DNA of 64,000 bases from Clostridiaceae bacterium (GTDB taxonomy: Bacteria > Bacillota > Clostridia > Acetivibrionales > DUMC01). Shown here one piece after another: positions 2,608 to 44,017 of this stretch. The notes below the pieces were generated by a model. The model was not told the DNA's origin and did no database searches. It saw nothing but the letters and a program-made list of their open reading frames with translations. The position numbers and the translations under genes are program-made. Within the stretch, counting starts at the first letter, position 1. Each line of letters opens with the position of its first letter. The stretch is from contig DUMC01000032.1 of the NCBI GenBank assembly GCA_012840075.1, forward strand, positions 1-64,000. Direction: 5' to 3'.

Positions 2608-4935
2608 ATGAAACTGTCGGAAAATGCTAAAAGGGTTCTTGAAAAAAGGTATTTTGCTAAAGATGAAAGCGGTAACTTATTGGAAGATGCAGAAGGAATG
2701 TTTAGACGAGTGGCAAAAGCTATAAGCGAAGCCGATGCTCCGTATGTGGATAAGAAAAGATTGGAAGAAATTGAAAATGAGTTTTATGATATGATGGTTA
2801 ATCTTGAGTTTTTACCTAATTCGCCTACATTGATGAATGCAGGAAGGCCGTTGGGCCAGCTTAGCGCATGTTTTGTTCTTCCTGTTGAAGATTCGATGGA
2901 AGGCATTTTTGAATCTATAAAAAATGCAGCGTTGATACATAAAAGCGGCGGTGGTACGGGATTTAGCTTTTCAAGGCTCCGACCTAAGGGATCCGCTGTA
3001 AAATCGACCGGAGGAGTAGCAAGCGGTCCTGTTAGCTTTATGAAGGTTTTTAATGCAGCTACAGAAGCAGTTAAGCAGGGAGGTACCCGAAGAGGGGCTA
3101 ATATGGGAATTCTCCGGGTTGATCATCCGGATATACGAGAATTCATAACATGCAAACAGGACAACAAGGATATTACAAATTTTAACATCAGTGTTGCTGT
3201 TACTGAAAAATTCATGGAAGCAGCTAAGAACAACCAGGAATATGACTTAATTGATCCCAGGACAGGTAAGCCTTGTGGCAAGGAAAATGCCAAGGAAATT
3301 TTTGATATGATCGTGGAGAACGCATGGAATAACGGAGAGCCGGGAATAATTTTCTTGGATAGAATTAACAAATATAACGTAACTCCTGCTTTAGGTGAGA
3401 TTGAAGCGACTAATCCGTGCGGTGAACAACCTCTGCTCCCTTATGAAGCATGCAATCTTGGCTCAATCAATCTAAGTGTTATGGTAAAGGAAAACGACGA
3501 AGGATATGAAATAGATTTTGATAAGTTGAAAAAAATAGTATGGTCTGCTGTCCATTTCCTGGATAATGTAATTGATGTAAATAAATATCCTCTTGAAGAG
3601 ATTGATAAAATGGCAAGAGGTACCAGAAAAATCGGTTTGGGGGTTATGGGATGGGCTGATCTCCTTTGCAAGCTTGGAATACCGTATAATTCCAGTAGAG
3701 CTGTAAAGCTTGCTGAAAAAGTTATGAGTTTCATCCAGGAGGAATCTAAAAAGGCGTCCATGGCTATTGCAGAAGTAAAAGGAGTATTTCCGTTTTACGA
3801 GCAAAGTATTTATAAAGATAAAGGGATTAAAATCAGAAATGCTACAACTACGACAATTGCTCCTACAGGAACATTAAGCATTATAGCCGGTGTATCAAGC
3901 GGTATTGAGCCATTGTTTGCAATATCATTTATACGCAACGTAATGGACAATGATGAGCTGATAGAAGTAAATCCGGTGTTTAAAGATGTAGCAATAAAGA
4001 GAGGTTTTTATTCTGACAATTTAATGAGAGAAATTGCTAAGAAAGGTACTGTGAGAGGAGTTGCAGGAGTTCCTTTGGATGTTCAGGAAGTTTTTGTAAC
4101 GGCTCATGATATTGATCCGGAGTGGCATGTAGAAATGCAGGCAGCTTTTCAGAAGTATACCGATAATGCTGTTTCAAAAACTGTTAACCTTCGCAATAGT
4201 GCAACTAAGGAAGATGTTAGAACTGTTTTCATGAAAGCTTATGAAAGCGGATGTAAAGGTGTAACAATTTACAGGGATGGAAGCAGAGAATCGCAAGTTT
4301 TAAATATCGGAAGTATCAAGGGGAAAGACAAAGATAGTCCAACAAAAACTCAAGAAGATAATCCGGCAGTAACTCAGACTCATACAACTAATACTGCAGC
4401 AGCCGGTAAATCAAGCGCGGGAACTTATACAAATAAAATTGTACCTAGAGAAAGACCGGTTATTACAACAGGTTTTACCGAAAAAGTAAGGATTGGCTGC
4501 GGCAATTTGTATATAACCGTTAACTATGATGAGCATGGTATATGCGAAGTGTTTACAAACCTTGGCAGGGGCGGCGGATGTCCTTCGCAGTCAGAAGCTA
4601 CCAGCCGTCTGGTTTCTATTGCCCTTAGAGCAGGTATGGATGTTCAATCTTTAGTTGAACAACTCAAAGGAATAAGATGTGCTACAACAATCAAGCAGAG
4701 GGGATTAAAGGTCATGTCCTGCCCTGATGCAATAGGAAAAGTAATCGAAAAAGTTGCAAAACTGCAAAGCAGCAATAATGGTAAGTATGAAGGTTTAAGT
4801 ATGCTATCGGAATTTAATGACGATGAACCCGATGATGAACCGACACAGCAGAAATGTCCGGAATGCGGAAGAAAGGTTGAACATGAGAGCGGGTGTGTTG
4901 TTTGCAGGCATTGCGGATATTCAAAGTGTGGTTGA
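2608..4935 (+). CDS. nrdJ: Adenosylcobalamin-dependent (class II) ribonucleotide reductase
   Basis: Reduces ribonucleotides to deoxyribonucleotides using coenzyme B12, supplying DNA precursors with or without oxygen. It has 775 residues. The active-site set is complete: N269-x-C271-x-E273 in NPCGEQ (thiyl radical Cys271) and the redox pair Cys88 (ACFVLPVEDS) and Cys282 (EACNLGSINL), in the same spacing as known class II enzymes. A Thr/Ser/Pro/Ala-rich linker (about residues 570-620) leads to a TSCPAD domain (GRGGGCPSQSEA) and a C-terminal CxxC pair cluster that may bind zinc or re-reduce the active site. Start 2608 follows AAAGGAGG at 2593-2600; an upstream in-frame start at 2569 lacks a ribosome site. 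No B12 riboswitch was seen; NrdR control is likely. Confidence 0.96.
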   Translation: MKLSENAKRVLEKRYFAKDESGNLLEDAEGMFRRVAKAISEADAPYVDKKRLEEIENEFYDMMVNLEFLPNSPTLMNAGRPLGQLSACFVLPVEDSMEGIFESIKNAALIHKSGGGTGFSFSRLRPKGSAVKSTGGVASGPVSFMKVFNAATEAVKQGGTRRGANMGILRVDHPDIREFITCKQDNKDITNFNISVAVTEKFMEAAKNNQEYDLIDPRTGKPCGKENAKEIFDMIVENAWNNGEPGIIFLDRINKYNVTPALGEIEATNPCGEQPLLPYEACNLGSINLSVMVKENDEGYEIDFDKLKKIVWSAVHFLDNVIDVNKYPLEEIDKMARGTRKIGLGVMGWADLLCKLGIPYNSSRAVKLAEKVMSFIQEESKKASMAIAEVKGVFPFYEQSIYKDKGIKIRNATTTTIAPTGTLSIIAGVSSGIEPLFAISFIRNVMDNDELIEVNPVFKDVAIKRGFYSDNLMREIAKKGTVRGVAGVPLDVQEVFVTAHDIDPEWHVEMQAAFQKYTDNAVSKTVNLRNSATKEDVRTVFMKAYESGCKGVTIYRDGSRESQVLNIGSIKGKDKDSPTKTQEDNPAVTQTHTTNTAAAGKSSAGTYTNKIVPRERPVITTGFTEKVRIGCGNLYITVNYDEHGICEVFTNLGRGGGCPSQSEATSRLVSIALRAGMDVQSLVEQLKGIRCATTIKQRGLKVMSCPDAIGKVIEKVAKLQSSNNGKYEGLSMLSEFNDDEPDDEPTQQKCPECGRKVEHESGCVVCRHCGYSKCG

Positions 4936-21411: not shown

Positions 21412-21728
21412 TAAATTCAGATCTTTGAAATCATATCATTTTAGAACAGCATCTTGCCTTTGGCATCCTTCTAACAGCTCCAGATATATTTAGTATTGTT
21501 GAAAAATTGATACAAATAATTAATCAAATAGTTACAACAACTATTTACAATAACTGATTTAAATAATCAGTTTTATGTTGACCATATGTGATAATATCGT
21601 CCTTTTATTGGATTCCTTTAGAGAAATTCTTTATATTTATACTTCTTTCACCTTTATTGAAAATTCTGCGAAAAGAAATTAAAATAAGGATTAAAAGAAC
21701 TAAAAAATAACATATAACAATATTAATA
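21412..21728. other. AT-rich intergenic region before the RNA candidate
   Basis: No gene of usual length. A short frame around 21477-21557 (APDIFSIVEKLIQIINQIV) has no start or ribosome site and is not supported as a gene. Confidence 0.5.
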
Positions 21729-21857
21729 CGGATAACTAGGGTAGGAACTATCCGAAGTAAGATGCCTGTGAAGTTATAGTAGATGACGAGGACGAAGAAG
21801 CAGGAAATTCTGTTGGTGACAACAGAAGCACGTGACTTTAGTCAAGTGAGGTTCACA
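21729..21857 (+). ncRNA. Unassigned structured RNA candidate
   Basis: An island of higher G+C in AT-rich DNA with several compatible stems. TGTGAA (21767-21772) pairs with TTCACA (21852-21857) and encloses a perfect 8-bp stem with a GTGA loop (TTCTGTTG/CAACAGAA, 21808-21827) and a second stem (CACGTGACT/AGTCAAGTG, 21829-21848). GGATA/TATCC at 21730-21753 forms a 5' hairpin. The purine-rich joining segment GATGACGAGGACGAAGAAG looks like a conserved RNA core rather than random sequence. No good reading frame runs through it. It is not a T-box and does not match riboswitch classes that I can recall fully; the raiA RNA family should be tested. The strand is inferred from the downstream gene at 22063. 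Confidence 0.45.
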
Positions 21858-22062
21858 AATAATTGATAGTTTATTTTTTTAAGTATATAATTTTATAAAG
21901 TGTATAATAACTAAATGAAATCAATATGAAATCGATGCAAGTGCTTTAATTTGTAATATTTAAGTAATCTTTAGAAAATTAATCAATTTATATTTTATAT
22001 TACAAATTAATCAATTTATATAATTGTTTGGCTGAAACCAAGTTTGGAGGATATAAACGACA

Positions 22063-26373: not shown

Positions 26374-26516
26374 AAAACGGGATCATCTTTAAATTGTTGA
26401 GATAAATTATTGAAATTATACATGCTTGAATTTTTGCTACATACATAATAGAAAAATTTGTAAATAAACAGAATTATTAAAAGAAAATAGAATTATATAA
26501 TGGAGGACTCTTTGTT

Positions 26517-26786
26517 GTGTGGATGGTATACAGAGCAATAGATTATTTGTTAATATTTATTCAATGGGCAATATTTGCGCGCGTGATAATATCATGGATA
26601 CCAATACCAAGGGATAATAATATAATAAGACTTTTGTACCAGATAACAGAACCAATTTTGGCACCATTAAGAAGTATTATACAAAGGTCTGCTTTGGGAA
26701 GAAGTATGATGCTTGATTTTTCACCGGTGCTGGCATTTTTGATAATAAGCTTTTTAAGGAATTTGGTATTTAATTTGATGTTTTAA
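26517..26786 (+). CDS. YggT family membrane protein
   Basis: An 89-residue protein with two hydrophobic segments flanking the family motif: YLLIFIQWAIFARVIISWIP and, after LYQITEPILAPLRSII, a C-terminal membrane segment. The family is linked to ion homeostasis and to positioning of membrane or plastid nucleoid structures; the exact role is unknown. It uses a GTG start at 26517 with GGAGG 10 nt upstream. It lies between sepF and divIVA, as is usual. Confidence 0.92.
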   Translation: MWMVYRAIDYLLIFIQWAIFARVIISWIPIPRDNNIIRLLYQITEPILAPLRSIIQRSALGRSMMLDFSPVLAFLIISFLRNLVFNLMF

Positions 26787-26906
26787 ACATGTCTTGCATA
26801 TGTAGAATATAAATATTGCATTTATGTATGAATTTTTGTATATATGTTCCGGTATGTTGAACAAGTTTGTGCCATTTTTACCTTTACCATGAACAAGAGG
26901 AAAGGA

Positions 26907-27374
26907 ATGGTTGTAACTATGAATTATACTCCCAATGATTTGCAGAATTTAACTTTTAAGAAAACCATAATGGGATATAGCGAAGATGAAGTAAATGAAG
27001 TCTTGGATAGAATAATAGAAGATTATAACGCTTACATAAAAGAAAATCTTGAATTAAAAGACAAGCTTGCTGTGCTAAATGAAGGACTGCAGCATTACAA
27101 GACCATTGAAGAATCATTGCAAAACGCACTCATAGTAGCCCAACAGACAGGAGAAGAAATTAAAAAGAATTCATATAGTAAAGCTGAAAATATTATCAAA
27201 GAGGCTGAAATAAAAGCGCAAAAAATAATAAATGATGCAAATCAGGAAGTACTTAAGATAAAAATTGAATATGAAGAAATCAAAAAAAAGTTTTATGCTT
27301 TTAAAGCAAAAGCAGAGTCCCTTCTTTTGTCTCAAATGGAAATTTTAAGACAACTGGACATAGATGACGAGTAG
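26907..27374 (+). CDS. divIVA: DivIVA domain protein
   Basis: A 155-residue protein with the DivIVA N-terminal domain (LTPNDLQNLTFKKTIMGYS-like start, EDEVNEVLDRIIEDY) followed by a long coiled coil rich in Glu and Lys. DivIVA proteins sense negative membrane curvature at poles and septa and recruit division or sporulation partners. The start at 26907 has AGAGG 6 nt upstream; 26919 is another possible start and the in-frame ATG at 26844 has no ribosome site. It ends 160 nt before the ileS promoter. Confidence 0.92.
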   Translation: MVVTMNYTPNDLQNLTFKKTIMGYSEDEVNEVLDRIIEDYNAYIKENLELKDKLAVLNEGLQHYKTIEESLQNALIVAQQTGEEIKKNSYSKAENIIKEAEIKAQKIINDANQEVLKIKIEYEEIKKKFYAFKAKAESLLLSQMEILRQLDIDDE

Positions 27375-27639: not shown

Positions 27640-28005
27640 TTTAAAAACGATGACTAGAACGAGTAGGAGTACTCTACCTTTAGAGAGAGCAGGTAGTTGG
27701 TGGAAATCCTGTAAGGGGAGGCTTCGAAAATCATCTACGAGTTGCAGACTGAAATTATGTAATAATTAGTACCTTGCTGATTATTACGTAAGAGTAAGTT
27801 AAGCCGGTGAAAGCCGTTATCGAAAATGAGGTGATTACATTATTACCGATAGGTAATAAGCCAGGGGATAATGATCCAAATTATAATAATTGCAAATGTT
27901 TGGTAATTTGCCATTTAATGAAATATGCCGGTAATAATGTAATAATTTGGGTGGTAACGCGTGAAGTAGAACCTTCTCGTCCCTTTACGGATGAGAAGGT
28001 TTTTT
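27640..28005 (+). promoter_or_regulatory. Isoleucine T-box riboswitch upstream of ileS
   Basis: Stem I elements run from about 27640, with AGAGAGC and GGTGGAAATCC (about 27683-27710). The specifier codon is read as ATC (27730-27732, Ile) in the context GAAAATCATCTACGAG. The T-box sequence TGGGTGGTAACGCG is at 27948-27961. The terminator is AACCTTCTC (27970-27978) pairing with GAGAAGGTT (27993-28001) plus a T-run. Uncharged tRNA-Ile should pair with specifier and T-box bulge to form the antiterminator and allow ileS transcription. Confidence 0.95.
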
Positions 28006-42352: not shown

Positions 42353-44017
42353 TTGCTGAATAACAAAAGAGCTTTTCTGTTACTTTTAGTGTTTACAATA
42401 GCCTTTGTAGGGCTTGTAATCAGACTTTTTGACATACAAATCGTAAACGGGGAAAGACTCTCCAAAGCAGCCTACGCTCAGAGAATAAATTCCATAGAAA
42501 TTGAAAAATTAAGGGGAGATATTCTTGACAGGAATGAAATCCCTTTTACTAATAGAAGTAAAAAATTTTTAATCGTGCTTAAACCTTTATTTTTACAGGA
42601 ACATGAGGAACAACTGAAAAAAATATGCAGCATCCTTGGAATGGACTATGAAAAGATTAAAAGTTCTATGAGATCTATGCTTGAGCCTATAGTGATAGAA
42701 ACAGACGAACACAGGAAAAATATAATAATGAACTTAAATTATGAGGGAGTCTCCATTATTAATTCTTTACACAGGTATGACGATAACTCCTTAGCAAAAC
42801 ATATTATTGGTTATATCAATTCCGTCGACGGTGTTGGCAGCACAGGTATAGAAAAATTTTACAACAATGCTTTGACATATGATGCAGAGACTCTTGTTGC
42901 GGTAGTAACTGACGGTAGGAATAATATTCTCCCCGGAATGGGATACAGAATAATGAAAATACCGGGAACTAATAAGAAGCTAAACGTTAAATTGACCTTA
43001 GATTATCATATACAAAAAATCGTAGAAGATGTAATGGAAAAACATGATATTAAAGGGGCAGTAGTCGTAGAAGACGTAAATAACGGAGATATTGTGGCAA
43101 TAGCCAGTAAACCGGATTTTGATCAAAACAACATAGCTAAATATCTTAACAGCACTGAACAAGAATTGTTTAATAGGGCCGTAGCGTCGTATGATCTTGG
43201 TTCCATATTCAAGATAATAGACCTGGCGGTTATGTTAGAAGTTAAAGATAATTGGGATGAAGAGTATTTTTGTACCGGATCAATAAAAATAGGAGATAGG
43301 GAATTCAAATGTTATAACCATGAGGAAGGAGGACATGGTTACGTTAACCTCGAGAAAGCTTTTGCCCTGTCCTGCAATACTTATTTTATTAATGCAGTAG
43401 TTAATGAAATTGATATTCGGAAATTATTGCAAAAAGCACATGAATTTGGTTTAGATAATAATACCGGAATAAACGAACAAGGAATTGATGAAGCAAAAGG
43501 AAATCTTCCGTTAGATAAGAAGTTTTTTTCATATGGAGATATTGCGAATATTTCAATAGGACAAGGCGAAATTATGGCTACTCCCATTCAAGTAGCCGAT
43601 ATTGTTGCTACAATAGCAAACGGAGGTATTAAAAACAAGATAAACATTGTAGATTCAATCGTAAATGAAAATGGAAATAAAGTAAGGGGCATCAAAGTTG
43701 AAAGAGGGTACAGGGTATTAGATAAAAAAATAGCAGACAAAATAAAAAGAATGATGGAGAATGTAATAGATTACGGAACAGGAAGAATGATAAGCTTGGA
43801 AAAATACGGCGGTGCAGCCGGAAAAACAGGCAGTGCCGAAACAGGACAATATGTAAACGGTCAAAGTGTTGTACATGGCTGGTTTGCAGGTTATTTTCCA
43901 AGGGTTAATCCGAAGTATTCAGTAGCTGTGTTTGTAGAAAACGGAAGAGCAGGTGGGACTGCCGGAGGACCGGTCTTTGAGGAAATTGCAAAGAGAGTTA
44001 TGGAAAAGGGGTATTAA
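42353..44017 (+). CDS. Class B penicillin-binding protein (peptidoglycan transpeptidase)
   Basis: A 554-residue bitopic protein with one membrane segment near the N-terminus (FLLLLVFTIAFVGLVIRLF) and the motif RGDILDRN in the dimerisation domain. The transpeptidase domain carries S284-I-F-K (SxxK), S340-C-N (SxN) and K491-T-G. It lacks PASTA repeats. Proteins of this type cross-link peptidoglycan at division, elongation or in the spore cortex. Facing sigK and ytvI, a sporulation role is possible but not shown. I choose the TTG at 42353 with AGGGAG 5 nt upstream; ATG 42338 and 42317 lack a good ribosome site. Confidence 0.9.
   Translation: MLNNKRAFLLLLVFTIAFVGLVIRLFDIQIVNGERLSKAAYAQRINSIEIEKLRGDILDRNEIPFTNRSKKFLIVLKPLFLQEHEEQLKKICSILGMDYEKIKSSMRSMLEPIVIETDEHRKNIIMNLNYEGVSIINSLHRYDDNSLAKHIIGYINSVDGVGSTGIEKFYNNALTYDAETLVAVVTDGRNNILPGMGYRIMKIPGTNKKLNVKLTLDYHIQKIVEDVMEKHDIKGAVVVEDVNNGDIVAIASKPDFDQNNIAKYLNSTEQELFNRAVASYDLGSIFKIIDLAVMLEVKDNWDEEYFCTGSIKIGDREFKCYNHEEGGHGYVNLEKAFALSCNTYFINAVVNEIDIRKLLQKAHEFGLDNNTGINEQGIDEAKGNLPLDKKFFSYGDIANISIGQGEIMATPIQVADIVATIANGGIKNKINIVDSIVNENGNKVRGIKVERGYRVLDKKIADKIKRMMENVIDYGTGRMISLEKYGGAAGKTGSAETGQYVNGQSVVHGWFAGYFPRVNPKYSVAVFVENGRAGGTAGGPVFEEIAKRVMEKGY

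Follow-up and report, generated by a model that had tools for sequence, protein, structure and literature searches.

A structured RNA in a clostridial intergenic gap as the probable stranded right end of an IS200/IS605 TnpB element

An AT-rich gap in the 64,000-nucleotide stretch analysed here (the window), upstream of a methionine gamma-lyase-like gene, holds a segment with several RNA-like stems, and the question is whether it represents a regulatory leader, a new class of RNA or part of something else. The best explanation overall, which we regard as very probable, is the right end of an IS200/IS605 element encoding a TnpB omegaRNA scaffold, stranded at this locus and most likely an inert fossil. 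TnpB is the nuclease from which CRISPR-Cas12 descends.

Fold and parts of the RNA

The segment 21734-21856 has a G+C content of 0.44, compared to 0.26 upstream and 0.18 downstream, in agreement with the elevated G+C described in the initial annotation. The + strand of 21720-21870 folds with -35 kcal/mol (z -3.05) and is more stable than 200 of 200 shuffles; the minus-strand fold is weaker (z -1.94). The individual parts are arranged as follows.

21658 to 21710 (end approximate), + strand: decayed 3' tail of tnpB (ENSAK..., then a frameshift and stops); 85% identity to the copy at C144 over 205 nt (window 21658-21857)
21734 to 21856, + strand: putative omegaRNA (reRNA) scaffold, right end of an IS200/IS605 TnpB element; nine genome copies, and the RNA lies 3' of intact tnpB at L044, L046 and L069
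21739 to 21753, + strand: stem 1, GGGUA[GGAAC]UAUCC; covariation GC/CG and UA/CG, with CCGCA[GGAAC]UGCGG in L043
21745 to 21748, + strand: GAAC, candidate 5' half of a pseudoknot with GTTC at 21851-21854; 97% of cells paired, no double changes, analogy with ISDra2
21765 to 21804, + strand: stem 2, CCUG (21765-21768) with CAGG (21801-21804), enclosing the purine-rich strand; 97% of cells paired, one CG to UA double change
21782 to 21800, + strand: purine-rich strand GATGACGAGGACGAAGAAG; its part CGAGGACGAAGAAG is kept in nearly all copies of the window's genome
21808 to 21827, + strand: stem 3, UUCUGUUG[GUGA]CAACAGAA; both-side changes in four pairs
21829 to 21848, + strand: stem 4, the right-end hairpin, CACGUGAC[UUUA]GUCAAGUG; both-side changes in four pairs over two segments
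21850 to 21856, + strand: GGTTCAC, 3' end of the element; copy-to-copy alignments stop here and the flanks differ
21857 to 21872, + strand: 16-nt flank AAATAATTGATAGTTT, which would be the guide position in an active element, by analogy with the ~16-nt flank of ISDra2

The structured multi-stem RNA proposed in the initial annotation is real, with its stems where they had been placed. TTCTGTTG and CAACAGAA form the perfect 8-bp hairpin with a GTGA loop (stem 3), CACGTGACT and AGTCAaGTG form a hairpin with a single G.A mismatch (stem 4), and both are supported by covariation. Stem 1, GGGTA[GGAAC]TATCC, is a third conserved hairpin that had been missed. In the alignment of copies and relatives, a model consisting of stems 1 to 4 and a pseudoknot leaves 95% of cells paired. 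Covariation, which had been named as a check on the fold, is seen as double changes in 11 pairs, and the main covariation measures are reached by none of 500 shuffles. Stems 1, 3 and 4 covary, and stem 2 has one covarying pair (UCUG/CAGA in L038 and L044). The stem 4 mismatch, G21832.A21845, is private to the window copy.

The pairing of the 3' end is less straightforward. TGTGAA and TTCACA, annotated as an enclosing helix, are both found in the sequence, as is the strand GATGACGAGGACGAAGAAG, and the alignment allows this helix (97% of cells paired), yet its letters are near-invariant. The pairing of the terminal GTTC with the stem 1 loop GGAAC is just as invariant. The group of L043 and L041 lacks the TGTGGA strand while retaining GGAAC and GTTC, and in the cryo-EM structure of ISDra2 a GAA further upstream is the pseudoknot partner of the corresponding UUC (PMC10097598). 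On these grounds, which are analogy and not covariation, the stem 1 loop is a more plausible partner for the 3' GTTC than the other strand of an enclosing helix.

Dispersed copies and association with tnpB

An Rfam scan of the RNA region returned no family at gathering score, and with permissive settings the only scores, to snoRNA and sRNA families, were at chance level (best E 1.7). The initial suggestion of raiA, and with it any other Rfam class, is dropped accordingly; raiA, presumed to be in the Rfam release, was not among the permissive matches. The HEARO RNA (IscB omegaRNA), an Rfam family, is likewise a transposon-encoded guide RNA; it belongs with another nuclease, and the window RNA does not match it or any other Rfam family. 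An exact search of viral contigs with the purine-rich strand gave no matches. Elsewhere in the window, at 27641-27987, the Rfam scan identifies a T-box leader (RF00230, 99.6 bits).

When the 3.78-Mb genome that contains the window was searched at the DNA level, nine full-length copies (the window RNA among them) and some fragments were revealed, 79-92% identical, on different contigs and scattered among unrelated contexts. Against the covariance model R1, built from 19 members that include the window copy, the nine score 110-136 bits and the window copy 131 bits. Similarity between copies ends at GGTTCAC (21850-21856), beyond which the sequences differ, as is to be seen at a right end. At the other side, the similarity of the window to C144 starts at 21658 and therefore begins ~75 nt before the RNA. 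At C144, an open frame runs through the stretch ahead of the RNA; its 41 residues correspond to the zinc-ribbon C-terminus of TnpB, with 71% identity to an intact TnpB over 45 residues (tblastn).

The same arrangement is preserved more completely in relatives. When named genomes were scanned for the pattern of the right-end hairpin, 41 stretches were returned, and at three of them (L044, a Sebaldella MAG; L046, Tissierella sp. P1; L069, a Paceibacterota MAG) the same RNA lies directly 3' of a tnpB frame of 391-393 amino acids on the same strand. Upstream, all three have a left-end hairpin of the CTCGTGACTTCAGTCATGAG type and a Y1 tnpA-like frame, which is interrupted in L046. The TnpBs of L069 and L046 carry the Pfam domains OrfB_IS605, Cas12f1-like_TNB and HTH_OrfB_IS605, and L069 TnpB matches the ISDra2 TnpB structures 8h1j and 8bf8 with E~1e-94. 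A Nostoc element (L063) has the same right-end hairpin, with a long zinc-ribbon frame reaching into it. The covariance model from this analysis also finds TnpB loci: it has matches in 16 other genomes among 245 of class Clostridia, and tnpB lies within 1.5 kb on the 5' side of the RNA at seven of the loci read (L097, L098, L101, L105, L109, L113, L119). Several other loci found by the model are solo, with no tnpB beside the RNA.

From sequence comparison, the feature is almost certainly the omegaRNA (reRNA) scaffold at the right end of an IS200/IS605 TnpB element. The initial annotation had left it between a known class that it could not name and a new one; a structured non-coding RNA of a known kind is what stands, unrecognised by Rfam, and the new class falls away. 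An RNA missed by the Rfam scan is now named. The intact TnpB loci match no Rfam family either, so right ends of this kind, in the gaps of clostridial genomes, can pass for novel sRNAs or riboswitches.

While this identity rests on homology and synteny, a mechanism can be proposed by analogy with ISDra2 of Deinococcus radiodurans, whose reRNA or omegaRNA (PMC8612924, PMC10097598) is likewise located at the 3' end of tnpB. Its right-end hairpin with a UUUA tetraloop and its GGTTCA end (PMC10097598) resemble those of the window RNA, as do its four stems and 3'-end pseudoknot (here a predicted one), and the guide would similarly be drawn from the flank. The window RNA differs in that its putative pseudoknot partner sits in the 5-nt loop of stem 1, and in that tnpB is lost at the locus, with no active partner found. 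In ISDra2, the reRNA corresponds to the 3' end of tnpB, the right end and ~16 nt of the flanking DNA. This flank-derived portion directs TnpB to the empty donor joint next to TTGAT, and cleavage there has been proposed to promote recovery of the element from a sister copy (PMC8612924). We postulate that in an intact element of the present family, the 16 nt following GGTTCAC (21857-21872) would act as guide, TnpB would cut the empty donor site beside a TTGAT-like motif, and repair of this cut could restore the transposon.

State of the window copy and alternative readings

At the window locus, the position of the omegaRNA at the 3' end of tnpB is visible just as a decayed tail, frameshifted relative to C144. 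No left-end hairpin was matched in the window at up to three mismatches, and tblastn of TnpB on 21412-21733 gave nothing convincing beyond the DNA-level tail. A complete IS200/IS605 element is thereby rejected, as the left-end hairpin and intact tnpA and tnpB are lacking and only the frameshifted tail is present. The palindrome-associated transposable elements (PATEs) of Haloquadratum (PMC3119063) are IS605 derivatives reduced to their ends, with no genes for proteins. As the window copy lacks a recognisable left end but still holds a tnpB relic, it represents a truncation and not a PATE. In relatives, where an empty site was sought, the gene neighbourhood is not conserved. Every tnpB of this family detected in the genome is broken or fragmentary (the draft is 97% complete, and an intact one could be missing), and the window copy is without its left end and the greater part of tnpB; the copy is therefore most likely an inert fossil. 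Decay has gone less far in the RNA body than in the tnpB tail, possibly as a result of selection. At C144 of genome G000, ~9 kb separate the C-terminal tnpB piece, with its omegaRNA, from a broken Y1 tnpA beside the N-terminal part of a broken tnpB (26476-26954).

The scaffold of the window copy, still largely intact at 131 bits despite the decay of tnpB, would also fit a solo omegaRNA with continuing transcription, serving in trans a TnpB (or a dead relative of it) encoded elsewhere, with a role in retention or in gene regulation; TldR proteins, which are RNA-guided transcription factors, show that TnpB relatives can be exapted (PMC13418256). We consider this improbable. An intact TnpB partner was not found in the genome, stem 4 carries its private mismatch, and the RNA is absent from both same-family genomes searched (G001 and G002). 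The would-be guide AAATAATTGATAGTTT occurs only once as an exact sequence in the genome; with one or two mismatches it occurs at 35 places including its own site, compared to 24 for the reversed control, in an AT-rich genome.

Far less probable still is a cis-regulatory leader, an unnamed riboswitch or raiA-like RNA serving the downstream gene (start 22063), which the initial annotation had described as encoding a PLP lyase-like enzyme. The RNA does lie ~200 nt upstream on the same strand, but the nine copies occupy unrelated contexts, the regions upstream of the orthologues in G001 and G002 share no similarity with the window, Rfam gives no match, and a promoter-like site (consensus match only) follows the element at 21863-21891. 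A chance fold in an AT-rich gap is refuted by the z-score, the dispersed copies, the covariation and the tnpB synteny, and we give it next to no weight.

Miniature protein-less elements

Apart from the right end in the window, the analysis shows miniature elements that retain the guide scaffold without a protein. A left-end hairpin joined straight to the omegaRNA was seen in three genomes (G000, G137 and G004). These miniature elements are PATE-like (PMC3119063), in that the copies of C112, C38, G137 and G004 fit terminal-only derivatives, with the guide scaffold kept. In G000, those at C112 (~42823-42996, minus strand) and C38 (~3389-3560, + strand) are 93% identical over 172 nt and have different flanks. 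Two G137 copies, at C19 and C7 (L103 and L115), agree at 143 of 144 positions, occupy different sites and start at TTGAT; among the loci read in G137, no TnpB was a close fit to them. It is conceivable, though unlikely, that the solo omegaRNA copies, above all C112 and C38, form a class of protein-less, guide-RNA-only transposons in which every fresh insertion would acquire a guide directed at its own empty site and would depend on TnpA and TnpB borrowed in trans, for movement as well as retention. G004 C1 holds a single miniature element at ~1001190 (L031), between two frames whose translations resemble a translation initiation factor and a ribosomal protein. A further omegaRNA copy, at G000 C74 (3258-3409), carries GCCTGTGGAGT repeats inside the scaffold and is ~28 nt longer.
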